Origin: Acidimicrobiia bacterium
GTDB taxonomy: Bacteria; Actinomycetota; Acidimicrobiia; Spongiisociales; UBA5794
NCBI GenBank assembly: GCA_013003395.1
Contig: JABDJC010000191.1
Location: 1-39,473 of the forward strand
Reading direction: 5' to 3'
DNA length: 39,473 bases
Each line of letters starts with the position of its first letter. The first letter of the stretch is position 1. The notes under the pieces were generated by a model. That model was given only the letters and a program-made list of their open reading frames with translations. It was not told the origin of the DNA and searched no databases. Both the position numbers and the translations under genes were made by a program. Of this stretch, positions 17,742 through 21,094 are shown piece by piece.

Positions 17742-17760
17742 GACCGATCAGGGATCGGTC
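17742..17760 (-). terminator. Hairpin at the end of the PH-domain gene
   Basis: GACCGATC (17742-17749) and GATCGGTC (17753-17760) are a perfect 8-bp inverted repeat with a 3-nt loop, overlapping the stop codon of the minus-strand PH-domain gene. No T-run follows, as is common for actinobacterial terminators. It separates that gene from the MFS gene. Terminator function is inferred. Confidence 0.55.
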
Positions 17761-18385
17761 AGATCTCGCCGAGGAGTTTCGCCTTCTTGGCCTCGAATTC
17801 CTCGTGGGTGAGGGTCCCGTCATCGCGCAACCTAGCGAGCTTTTCGATGCGATCCTCGGGGCGCTCCCCCGCAGGACCGGTCGAACCATGGACGTTGAGG
17901 GCCTTGGTGCGCGCTTCACGCATCCGGTAGAGCAGGCCCTGGAACGCTTCGGGATCGGGAATGTCTTCGAATCGACTCTGACCCGACTCTCCCGCAGATT
18001 CAACGAGAAGATCACCAGACCTGAGCATCCGTTCGAGGACGTTCTGGTTGAACAGCACGTTGTTGACGTTCTCGAGCGGAATCTCGATACCGGTCCGTGC
18101 TACGAAGCCCGAGCGGGTGATCAATCTCTCGTTGGTCAATACGTACGTGGTGAACCACCACTTGATGAAGGGCATCACGGCCAGAGGGATCAGGGCGAGA
18201 ATGATGAAGCCGCTGATGACCCAGTCGATCACTGGATCCTGCGGCGGGATCCACGTGTGGACGGAGACGATGGCGGCCAGGCCAAGAATCTCCCACAAGA
18301 CCGGAAACGCCAGCATTCGCCAGTGTGGTCTGAATTCCCGCTCGACCGTTTCGCCTTCGCTGAGATGTTTTCGATCGTATGCCAT
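17759..18385 (-). CDS. PH-domain (bPH2/YdbS-like) membrane protein with SHOCT tail
   Basis: A 208-aa protein with two transmembrane helices (about residues 25-45 and 54-73). A bacterial PH domain follows: TYVLTNERLITRSGFVARTG, then EIPLENVNNVLFNQNVLERM and GDLLVESAGESGQ. The C-terminus is a SHOCT motif, EKLARLRDDGTLTHEEFEAKKAKLLGEI in two halves, a short domain thought to mediate oligomerisation. The function of this family is unknown; membrane stress roles have been proposed for relatives. The ATG at 18385 lies 6 nt from a TAGCAT -10 box. It is divergent from the structured element A. Confidence 0.88.
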   Translation of the reverse strand: MAYDRKHLSEGETVEREFRPHWRMLAFPVLWEILGLAAIVSVHTWIPPQDPVIDWVISGFIILALIPLAVMPFIKWWFTTYVLTNERLITRSGFVARTGIEIPLENVNNVLFNQNVLERMLRSGDLLVESAGESGQSRFEDIPDPEAFQGLLYRMREARTKALNVHGSTGPAGERPEDRIEKLARLRDDGTLTHEEFEAKKAKLLGEI

Positions 18386-18397: not shown

Positions 18398-18439
18398 CCG
18401 ACCGCGAGGTCGACCGACACGACAAGGACTCCAAAACGC

Positions 18440-18492
18440 GGGAAACCCCGAGGAAGCTCTGGCCGAAGCCTTTGCCCTCTCGGGGTGTTCCC
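18440..18492. repeat. Leading hairpin of element A (copy 1 of 2)
   Basis: A 53-nt inverted structure: basal stem GGGAA/TTCCC (18440-18444 with 18488-18492), main stem CCCCGAG/CTCGGGG (18446-18452 with 18479-18485), and an apical GGC-CGAA-GCC. The same structure and length recur at 19561-19613, where the basal stem is made of other complementary bases. It is not behind a gene stop on either strand, so it is unlikely to be just a terminator. Confidence 0.7.
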
Positions 18493-18854
18493 ATCTCCTT
18501 GCGGTTTTCCGCCCTCTCGAGCGGTTCCCTCTGGAGGCGTCGACTGCGCTTTCGCCCAATCGCCTCCCTCGAGCCGGACCGAAGTCCGTCCCTCGGGTGC
18601 GTCACCCAGACCGAAGCCTTCGGGTGTCGCCGATCCGATCTCCTGCCCAAGTGACCCCGGAGGGTCAGTTTGGCCAGCCCCTTTCGGGGCGACCCGCCCC
18701 TCTCTCGAAGAGCGATCCGGTCACGGACCACCTCGCCGACCCTCACGGGCCTTCGAAGCCCCAGAAGCCGTTTCTGGCTCTGAGTTTCGCCGGTGAGATC
18801 ACTCTCTCCGGCAACAAGGAGGAACCTACGAGCCGCGAACGTGGAACGCAAGCC

Positions 18855-18899
18855 AAAACGCTGGTTCGTTTTCGCGACTCTTGTCTAAGTTTCGCGACC
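18855..18899. repeat. Conserved tail of element A: hairpin plus two TTTCGCGAC repeats
   Basis: AAAACG-CTGGTT-CGTTTT forms a 6-bp hairpin at 18855-18872. TTTCGCGAC occurs at 18870-18878 and again at 18890-18898, exactly 20 nt apart, or about two helical turns. The block ends 70 nt before the ASCH gene start. The same arrangement closes element B at 20115-20160. It could be a protein-binding site or the 3' end of a structured RNA. Confidence 0.6.
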
Positions 18900-18969
18900 A
18901 CGCCTCGAAGACCTCGAAAACCCTTTTGGGACGGCGTTGTGGGCGCCGCCATTGTGCCAAGATCGGGGA

Positions 18970-19557
18970 ATGCTGCTCACGAGAAACACGCTCGACCGGA
19001 TCGTGAACGGCGACATCGACGTCGTGTTCCGGCGGTGGAAGCGGCCGACGGTCAAGACCGGAGGGTCGCTGCGCACTGCGGTTGGCGTGCTGTCGATCGT
19101 GAGCGTCGAAGAAGTCGCCATGTCGACGATCAGCGTGTCCGACGCACAGCGTGCCGGCTATCGCACGAAGTCAGCCTTGCTGGAGGAGTTGTCGAGGCGC
19201 AGCGGCGCCGTATACCGAATCGAGGTGACCTACGCGGGTGCAGATCCACGGATCGAGCTACGCGAGAACAGTCGTATCAGTGGAGAGGAACTGGCTCTGC
19301 TCAAGAGCCGGCTGGAGCGCATGGACACTCGTTCCGATCGGGGTGCGTGGACGAGGAGCACGCTCGAGCTCCTGGCGCGACATCCTGGCGTCCGCGCTCA
19401 GGATCTGGCGGACCGCGTCGGGATCGAGAAGCAGCGGTTCAAGACAGACGTGCGCAAGCTCAAAGGACTCGGCCTCACGATCAGCCACTCCCCCGGTTAC
19501 GAGCTGTCTCCCCGCGGCGCAGCACTCTTGGGTGCCCTCGACGAGGACTCGCCCTGA
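18970..19557 (+). CDS. ASCH-domain protein with C-terminal winged-helix-like domain
   Basis: A 195-aa protein. Residues 1-115 look like an ASCH (PUA-like, RNA-binding) domain: LDRIVNGDIDVVFRRWKRP, TVKTGGSLRTAVGVLSI, then VSDAQRAGYRTKSALLEEL. Residues 125-188 look like a winged helix: WTRSTLELLARHPGVRAQDL, LADRVGIEKQRFKTDVRKL and GYELSPRGAALL. Similar two-domain proteins occur across Actinomycetota; their target is unknown. The ATG at 18970 has GGGGA directly in front, which is very close; in-frame TTG codons upstream are alternatives. The gene sits between the two structured elements, and the leading hairpin of element B begins 3 nt after its stop. Confidence 0.8.
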   Translation: MLLTRNTLDRIVNGDIDVVFRRWKRPTVKTGGSLRTAVGVLSIVSVEEVAMSTISVSDAQRAGYRTKSALLEELSRRSGAVYRIEVTYAGADPRIELRENSRISGEELALLKSRLERMDTRSDRGAWTRSTLELLARHPGVRAQDLADRVGIEKQRFKTDVRKLKGLGLTISHSPGYELSPRGAALLGALDEDSP

Positions 19558-19560
19558 ACG

Positions 19561-19613
19561 CGAGAAACCCCGAGGAAGCGTTGGCCGAGGCCGCTGCCCT
19601 CTCGGGGATCTCG
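19561..19613. repeat. Leading hairpin of element B (copy 2 of 2)
   Basis: A 53-nt structure: basal stem CGAGA/TCTCG (19561-19565 with 19609-19613), main stem CCCCGAG/CTCGGGG (19568-19574 with 19601-19607), apical GGC-CGAG-GCC. Relative to 18440-18492 both basal arms have changed and still pair, the pattern expected when structure is under selection. It begins 3 nt after the ASCH gene stop, so here it could also serve as that gene's terminator. Confidence 0.7.
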
Positions 19614-19785
19614 TGACTCCTCGGTCTTTCAGATCCGAAGATCTGACTCCGTTGGAGTCGTTCGAAGCGGCAAGCCGCTCCGATCCCGATTGCACCGGCC
19701 GAAGCCGATCCGCTCGGGTGGTGGATCCGACGCCGTCCCGCTGACTCGTTAAAGCCCTCGGGGCGTTGGCGGACCCGGCTCTCTC

Positions 19786-19932
19786 TTCCAGTCCGAGGAC
19801 CTTCCGTTCGAGCGGTGCTGTCCCTTCCAGTCCGAAGACCTTCCGTTCGAGCGGTGCTGTCCCTTCCAGTCCGAAGACCTTCCGTTCCAGCGGTGCTGTC
19901 CCATCCAGTCCGAAGACCTTCCGTTCCAGCGG
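19786..19932. repeat. 39-nt tandem repeat, 3.8 copies
   Basis: Units start at 19786, 19825, 19864 and 19903; the last is cut after about 30 nt. Each holds two small hairpins, GTC-CGAR-GAC and CCGT-TCSA-GCGG (the latter with a T-G pair). The internal differences between full units are one A/G change in the first loop and one G/C change in the second loop; the stems are invariant. The period is a multiple of three, which creates spurious repetitive peptides on both strands. There are no spacers, so it is not a CRISPR array. Confidence 0.88.
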
Positions 19933-20114
19933 GTTGAGTCACCTCGCGGTTCCTCACTCGGTGTCGGCCGAGGCCTCTTCCGAGCCCGGCACATCGTATG
20001 GCTCGTGAGAACTGCCGATGTGTGGTCCCTCGCGGGTCCGTCCGGTTCTTCTCCCGGCCGAAGCCGTTCGAAGCGAGGGCGAATGTACCGTCGGAAAAGT
20101 TCGCCCGTCAACTC

Positions 20115-20160
20115 AGAACGCTGTTTCGTTTTCGCGACCGGATCAAAAGATTTCGCGACC
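20115..20160. repeat. Conserved tail of element B: hairpin plus two TTTCGCGAC repeats
   Basis: AGAACG-CTGTTT-CGTTTT (20115-20132) repeats the element A tail hairpin, with one A-T pair replaced by a G-T wobble. TTTCGCGAC occurs at 20130-20138 and 20151-20159, 21 nt apart. A 22-nt block at 20117-20138 matches 18857-18878 at 21 positions. The tail ends 100 nt before the nuclease gene start. Confidence 0.6.
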
Positions 20161-20260: not shown

Positions 20261-21094
20261 ATGACGGATCAAACGAGCACAGCGCAACCCATCGAACCGA
20301 TCACTGAGCTTGCGACCCTGTCTCCATCGCGTGCGAGCGACTTCAAGACGTGTCCGCAGCTCTTCAAGTTTCGGGCCATCGACAAGATCCCGGAACCGAA
20401 GACGATCTATCAGGCACGCGGAACCACCGCGCACCTCGCCCTACAGAGGCTGTTCGACCTCCCGTCTGCTGACCGGACACCCGATGCCCTGTTCGATCTC
20501 TTTCGCTCGGCATGGACCGAACTGCGCGATTCGGAATACCCGGAGCTGTTCGAGTCCGTCGAAGACGAGCGAGCGTGGGGTATCGAGAGCCTCACGGTGA
20601 TCGCCAACTATTTCTCGATGGAGGATCCGGCGGCGTTCGACCCGCTCGACCGCGAGCTCGACATGCTCGAGGATCTCGGCGAGATGACCATCCGAGGGAT
20701 TCTCGATCGGATGGAAGAGGTCGGCGACGATCTCGTAATCACCGACTACAAGTCCGGCAAGGCCCCACCAGAGCGATACGCGATCCCTGCCTTCTTTGCA
20801 CTGAAGATCTACGCCGCCCTGATCAGGAAACGAACGGGTCGGACACCGAACCGGCTTCGGCTGATGTATCTCACCAACCCGACGGTGTACGAAGTACCCG
20901 TCACGGACTCCCAACTCGATGCGGTAGAACGCAAGGTCAAGGCACTCTGGGACGCCATCAACCGAGCCATTGCGCGGGAGCAGTTTCCGCCGAAGGTGAG
21001 CCGACTGTGCGACTGGTGTTCGTACAAGCCGATGTGTCCAGCATTTGCCGATGAGGTCGTGACCCCTGAGCTCCCGACTGCAGTCGGGACCTGA
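20261..21094 (+). CDS. RecB/Cas4-like PD-(D/E)XK nuclease with iron-sulfur Cys motif
   Basis: A 277-aa single-domain nuclease resembling mycobacterial Rv2119. It begins LSPSRASDFKTCPQLFKFRA with Cys31, followed by the conserved His58 in RGTTAHLALQ. The catalytic core is IRGILDRME with Asp149 and ITDYKSGKA with Asp162 and Lys164. Three more Cys at 250, 253 and 259 (LCDWCSYKPMCPAF) complete a Cas4/AddB-type 4Fe-4S site. All catalytic residues are intact. It is expected to degrade DNA ends, but its partner is unknown. The start is fixed by the -10 box 7 nt upstream. Its stop lies 3 nt from the convergent gdhA stop. No cas genes are present. Confidence 0.9.
   Translation: MTDQTSTAQPIEPITELATLSPSRASDFKTCPQLFKFRAIDKIPEPKTIYQARGTTAHLALQRLFDLPSADRTPDALFDLFRSAWTELRDSEYPELFESVEDERAWGIESLTVIANYFSMEDPAAFDPLDRELDMLEDLGEMTIRGILDRMEEVGDDLVITDYKSGKAPPERYAIPAFFALKIYAALIRKRTGRTPNRLRLMYLTNPTVYEVPVTDSQLDAVERKVKALWDAINRAIAREQFPPKVSRLCDWCSYKPMCPAFADEVVTPELPTAVGT

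Follow-up and report, generated by a model that had tools for sequence, protein, structure and literature searches.

Two hairpins of an Acidimicrobiia contig form the 3' ends of a conserved, predicted minus-strand RNA gene whose control is possibly linked to replication

The stretch of DNA analyzed here (the window, 39,473 nt in full) carries two similar hairpins, and the question raised by this locus is whether their pairing is under selection, on which strand they act and to what larger unit they belong. When the window sequence was re-read, the hairpins were found at 18440-18492 and 19561-19613 (53 nt each) as originally predicted, with a common stem of CCCCGAG/CTCGGGG, basal arms of GGGAA/TTCCC in one and CGAGA/TCTCG in the other that pair in both with the register off by one base, and apices of GGC-CGAA-GCC and GGC-CGAG-GCC. 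Both belong to a single repeat family (D4), with 88% identity over 51 nt. The original prediction had read the hairpins on the plus strand and called them leading; both points had to be revised, as the functional strand is the minus strand and each hairpin is the 3'-terminal hairpin of an RNA. On the RNA, the plus-strand CGAA loop becomes UUCG and CGAG becomes CUCG, a YNMG loop. The two hairpins belong to a larger unit, of which they are the 3' ends in two copies of a predicted minus-strand RNA gene. The features of the locus are listed below.

17759..18385, minus strand: PH-domain/SHOCT gene flanking the RNA locus (Pfam, synteny)
18428..18817, minus strand: RNA copy 1 (E1), from the predicted start near 18817 to past the terminal hairpin (promoter and hairpin layout)
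18440..18492, minus strand: E1 terminal, terminator-like hairpin (A1 alignment, covariation; model R1, 78.6 bits)
18823..18851, minus strand: E1 promoter, -35 TTGCGT (18851-18846), N17, -10 TAGGTT (18828-18823)
18870..18897, minus strand: E1 twin TCGCGAAA boxes (18897-18890 and 18877-18870; control pattern, 0)
18970..19557, plus strand: intervening gene, for which Pfam gives a weak winged-helix match, its stop codon abutting E2
19550..20076, minus strand: RNA copy 2 (E2), from the predicted start near 20076 to past the terminal hairpin
19561..19613, minus strand: E2 terminal, terminator-like hairpin (alignment, covariation; model R1, 70.6 bits)
20082..20111, minus strand: E2 promoter, -35 TTGACG (20111-20106), N18, -10 TACATT (20087-20082)
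20130..20158, minus strand: E2 twin TCGCGAAA boxes (20158-20151 and 20137-20130)
20261..21094, plus strand: PD-(D/E)XK (RecB/Cas4-like) nuclease gene flanking the RNA locus (Pfam, synteny)

The twin boxes of E1 begin 46 and 26 nt upstream of its -35, and the E2 promoter was the sole promoter-like site called by an independent scan. E2 holds a hairpin that is repeated at 39-bp spacing (19778-19932). For the gene between the copies, no relative was detected at this place in the other loci examined. A Shine-Dalgarno-complementary CCTCCTT was observed at the predicted start of RNA copy 1 (18809-18822, minus strand) and is not a family-wide feature.

Selection on structure, proposed from the two window copies, was examined in the larger alignment of homologous hairpins that had been suggested as a check. 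This alignment (A1) included 72 terminal-hairpin sequences, 71 of them distinct, and covariation exceeded that of shuffled alignments: 91.0% of cells were paired compared to 87.6 ± 0.4 in shuffles, 12 pairs had two-sided changes compared to 8.3, and 68 cells had a two-sided change compared to 38, with none of 500 shuffles reaching any of the three observed values. The strongest compensatory changes were found in the core and apical stems, with GC to AU at columns 20-51 (six times) and 32-39 (14 times) and CG to UA at columns 27-44 (11 times) and 33-38 (seven times). The basal stem was noisy when scored as fixed-register columns, because its register shifts by one base and because its 3' arm (TTTCyCGCG) is itself conserved. 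Exchange of arms between sequences was chosen as the test for this stem on account of the register shift. By this approach, basal arms with their own partner had a mean of -8.9 kcal/mol and exchanged arms a mean of -7.5 kcal/mol; the best of 5000 permutations was -8.5 kcal/mol, and none of the 5000 reached the natural value. Relatedness was only partly controlled in both the shuffle and the arm-permutation tests, which together confirm selection on structure across the 71 distinct sequences. Independent variation of the basal arms, which would speak against pairing, was looked for in A1 and was not found. The basal stem, on which the original prediction centered, is the least informative part of the hairpin, and covariation is strongest in the core and apical stems. 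Two-sided changes were also detected in the 5' and internal hairpins of the RNA.

The interiors of the elements, upstream of the terminal hairpin, identify the strand. Among 69 elements, the minus strand was found to carry 230 GNRA and 162 UNCG tetraloop hairpins, compared to 24.7 and 8.1 in dinucleotide shuffles and 4 and 12 on the plus strand. All 69 elements folded more stably on the minus strand, and the mean fold z was -6.0 for the 40 elements tested. For the window copies, z was -5.7 (minus) versus -2.6 (plus) for E1 and -3.5 versus -1.5 for E2, the folded stretches differing somewhat between strands. The hairpin loops were UUCG, GAAA, GCAA, GAGA and CUCG (UUCG or CUCG at the minus-strand apex of the terminal hairpin), the internal loops were mostly GA/GA-type mismatches, and the unpaired bases were rich in A and G. 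Such loop and junction statistics are typical of an RNA that folds stably. In most of the RNAs, the promoter is followed by a 5' hairpin that contains a purine internal loop. From predicted start to terminal hairpin the elements span approximately 107 to 837 nt, and in the two window copies 390-530 nt of hairpins lie between the -10 and the terminal hairpin. A protein-coding function was rejected based on single-base indels among three closely related copies (alignment A3). Termination would occur at the terminal hairpin, which resembles an intrinsic terminator; a simple scan made no intrinsic-terminator call there.

A common layout of twin boxes, promoter, hairpins and terminal hairpin, in this order on the minus strand, was found in 71 of the 72 homologous elements, with two TCGCGAAAA-like boxes whose first bases lie 46 and 26 nt (±1) upstream of the -35 TTG (also 71 of 72), then N17-18 and, in most elements, a TAnnTT -10. 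The search behind the 71 of 72 was itself designed around that layout, and the unbiased support is therefore the search with an exact pattern: the composite CGCGAA-N13-15-CGCGAAA-N17-19-TTG was detected in 52 of 60 relatives, at one to five sites each, and its control had 0 matches. Each tandem RNA copy has its own promoter. Taken together, the sequence comparisons establish a conserved gene for a predicted RNA together with its strand, promoter layout and structure, and the gene is presumably transcribed.

With copy 1 as a DNA query, 47 of 60 relatives had a match. In most cases this match was to the terminal hairpin (query 37-87), and frequently there was another to a further block of conserved sequence at the other end (about query 440-500), which on the minus strand corresponds to the promoter with its twin boxes. 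Forty larger regions were retrieved, and the 72 elements were obtained by profile search. A covariance model (R1) built from the terminal hairpin matched, at E<=1e-5, 117 of 138 genomes and 55 of 61 genera of the order; weaker matches were found in some other families of the class and almost none elsewhere in the phylum. This phylum was judged to be Actinomycetota from the flanking nuclease, whose relatives in a scan of named genomes were all distant Actinomycetes. No terminal-hairpin match was detected in any listed genome of one genus, g40 (G449, G165, G450, G194, G451 and G452), reflecting either loss or divergence. In other families of the class (L231-L236, L241, L248 and L249), RNA-like tracts were observed that end in a similar terminal hairpin and have neither twin boxes nor synteny; DnaA-box-like TGTGGAAAA and GTGGATAAG stretches were seen, by eye only, upstream of several of them.

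The RNA family was next compared to known RNAs. Rfam 15 had 0 matches in the window at gathering threshold, the best E within the locus was 3.2, and no paper describing either the twin boxes or the RNA came up in a literature search. A previously undescribed family of structured non-coding RNA is thus probably at hand, as part of the explanation favored below. Among the alternatives, an RNA polymerase-binding RNA like 6S or Ms1 would agree with a stable structured RNA of this phylum, where Ms1 stands in for 6S (PMC9130861). We consider this reading improbable, as 6S is among the families with no Rfam match at gathering threshold (nor any at E<=5), the HAD hydrolase by whose synteny Ms1 is described (PMC9130861) is not among the neighbors identified at the RNA locus, and an array of short hairpins over 107-837 nt differs from one long hairpin with a central bubble.

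The gene context bears on two further possibilities: a long 5' leader or attenuator that serves the PH-domain gene, or the RNA component of a unit resembling type III toxin-antitoxin systems. The usual order is PH-domain gene, one to three elements and PD-(D/E)XK nuclease gene, and beyond the latter often a glutamate dehydrogenase gene followed by AdnA- and AdnB-like genes. The E1 terminal hairpin lies approximately 30-110 nt before the start of the PH-domain gene in many genomes, and the succession of promoter, hairpins, terminator-like hairpin and gene is the layout of such leader or toxin-antitoxin units. However, both copies are flipped relative to both neighbors at two loci (L237 and L246), copies are divergent at a third (L068) and three copies lie off the locus (L073-L075), arrangements that mark the RNA as an independent gene rather than a leader; a separate promoter for each tandem copy is also at odds with a leader. 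A type III system was rejected because the RNA, in these same copies, is not always directly upstream of a same-direction gene; in addition, Pfam assigns the PH-domain protein to no toxin family and identifies it as PH-domain/SHOCT rather than as a ToxN/CptN/TenpN-fold toxin, and the hairpins are not identical repeats. This pair of readings is accordingly very unlikely. Genes between copies change from genome to genome, and the cargo genes scanned there fall into different families or into no family at all. One genome (G019) has two near-identical short copies at unrelated places (L073:7869-7921 and L074:8305-8357) with a run of N inside each, a pattern that could reflect occasional spread or an artifact of the assembly.

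The box pair is not confined to the RNA gene. A TCGCGAAA pair, with at least 13 of 16 bases matching, precedes dnaA (oriC) in 37 of the 40 genomes examined from the order (L282-L321), and such a pair also precedes dnaA in the window's own genome (L191, L080; G000:C81:5367-5415). The pair always points toward dnaA (reversed controls, 0 of 40), its boxes are 20-21 bp apart, and it is a conserved predicted signal of the origin region. A TTG at promoter spacing is usually missing there, and the pair may therefore work in the origin itself instead of in a promoter. Another family of the class has the same pair in three small, AT-rich genomes (L276-L278). There it precedes a gene that occupies the dnaA position and was identified as dnaA by the neighboring dnaN- and yidC-like frames and not by family search. 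This class includes a large set of genomes of about 1.1 Mb, those examined being AT-rich and Actinomarina-like, and on these grounds it is probably Acidimicrobiia.

A twin-box promoter was likewise detected upstream of nrdJ, as identified by NCBIfam, at 23 loci (L171-L175, L177, L178, L180-L186, L188, L190, L193, L194, L196, L197, L200, L202 and L205). The nrdJ loci have a second conserved block nearer the gene, TTGACG and then GTTACA with TGTAAC. At L187, L189, L195, L199, L201, L203 and L204, a twin-box promoter was observed before a small gene (MDPF..HPDL..LGR) that is followed, in several genera, by a cpaB-like Flp pilus gene. At L176, L179 and L206, the twin box precedes an uncharacterized gene with a GAACN4GTTCG-like palindrome at its start, and the two genes of this type that were tested had no NCBIfam match. 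The same site was thus found at the RNA gene, dnaA and nrdJ, and a box pair common to the RNA gene, oriC/dnaA and nrdJ is established at the level of DNA sequence. We infer that one regulator may act on all three, with expression in step with replication; the regulator could also differ between box sites.

A box pair shared with oriC would also suit an element that works as DNA, such as a replication origin, a terminus or a mobile or recombination site with hairpins in single-stranded DNA, and so would the variable genes between copies and the two identical or nearly identical off-locus copies in G019. This reading is highly improbable. By GC skew, the closed genome G056 has its origin close to dnaA (about 1.36 Mb) and its terminus at around 0.1-0.2 Mb, whereas the RNA locus is at 2.085 Mb, approximately 0.73 Mb from the origin and not at a skew switch, which excludes oriC or terminus as the identity of the locus. 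The strand-asymmetric GNRA/UUCG loops point to an RNA of one strand and the promoter is conserved; a plus-strand or attC/mobile-element reading was ruled out by these tetraloops, the fixed minus-strand promoter and synteny. A phage-borne element was rejected as well, with 0 exact pattern matches in viral contigs. A CsrB/RsmZ-type sponge for CsrA, suggested by the many hairpins and G/A-rich unpaired stretches, is hardly credible and was ruled out by the absence of CsrA, which was found in 7 of 41 genomes and is absent from the other 34, including the window's own and most of those with the RNA, while the loops are GNRA/UUCG and do not present the GGA motif.

The explanation that we favor, and hold to be probable, is that the hairpins are the 3'-terminal ends of two paralogous minus-strand non-coding RNA genes under replication-linked control. 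In each gene, the twin TCGCGAAA boxes would be followed at fixed spacing by a -35/-10 promoter and then by the RNA itself: a 5' hairpin, a variable array in which the hairpins are capped by GNRA/UUCG loops, contain tandem G.A internal loops and are separated by short A/G linkers, and lastly the conserved terminal hairpin. The family would be kept mostly at one locus across this actinobacterial order. Because the promoter of the RNA carries the twin box of oriC/dnaA and nrdJ, its expression is most likely timed to chromosome replication, via a candidate regulator at the twin box. For this replication link taken by itself, we put the chances at near even or modestly better. That a candidate oriC-binding regulator of the TCGCGAAA pairs controls dnaA, nrdJ and the multi-hairpin RNA together is a serious possibility of slightly less than even weight. 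The RNA may act as a multi-hairpin, multi-site scaffold or sponge for protein through its repeated hairpin modules; this is our best guess, and a variable number of similar modules would fit it better than one fixed catalytic core. Any particular molecular target would be named with far less confidence than the replication link.

If correct, joint control of dnaA, nrdJ and the RNA by such a regulator would amount to a replication-phase regulon in bacteria that counts an RNA among its members, and the RNA would be a dedicated part of replication control in the order. The family is present in most genomes of the order, has no Rfam match and has an exact promoter signature. Through the shared twin box, one could approach the coordination of replication initiation, dNTP supply and a non-coding RNA in a group that has received little study, as well as the candidate replication-linked regulator itself, for which no name was found.

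Several known systems invite comparison. Like the large structured RNA classes of bacteria (e.g., PMC2864571), this family was found by covariation, its strand was deduced from stable tetraloops and it has no assigned function; unlike them, it gets no hit by sequence or model in Rfam 15, where many such families are catalogued, and its shared promoter box points to a regulon. Ms1 and 6S are similar in being abundantly structured RNA genes, in the actinobacterial setting and in the conserved locus, and differ in architecture and neighbors (for Ms1, by its description) and in the missing Rfam match. CsrB, RsmY and RsmZ are also standalone genes for arrays of similar stable hairpins, variable in number, with a terminator-like end, whereas most hosts here are without CsrA, the loops are GNRA/UUCG instead of GGA and Rfam gives no match. 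In E. coli, dnaA and nrdAB are regulated by DnaA. The order studied here would be similar in placing one kind of site at both the initiator gene and a ribonucleotide reductase gene, and different in that the boxes are TCGCGAAA pairs, not DnaA boxes, and the set includes a non-coding RNA.
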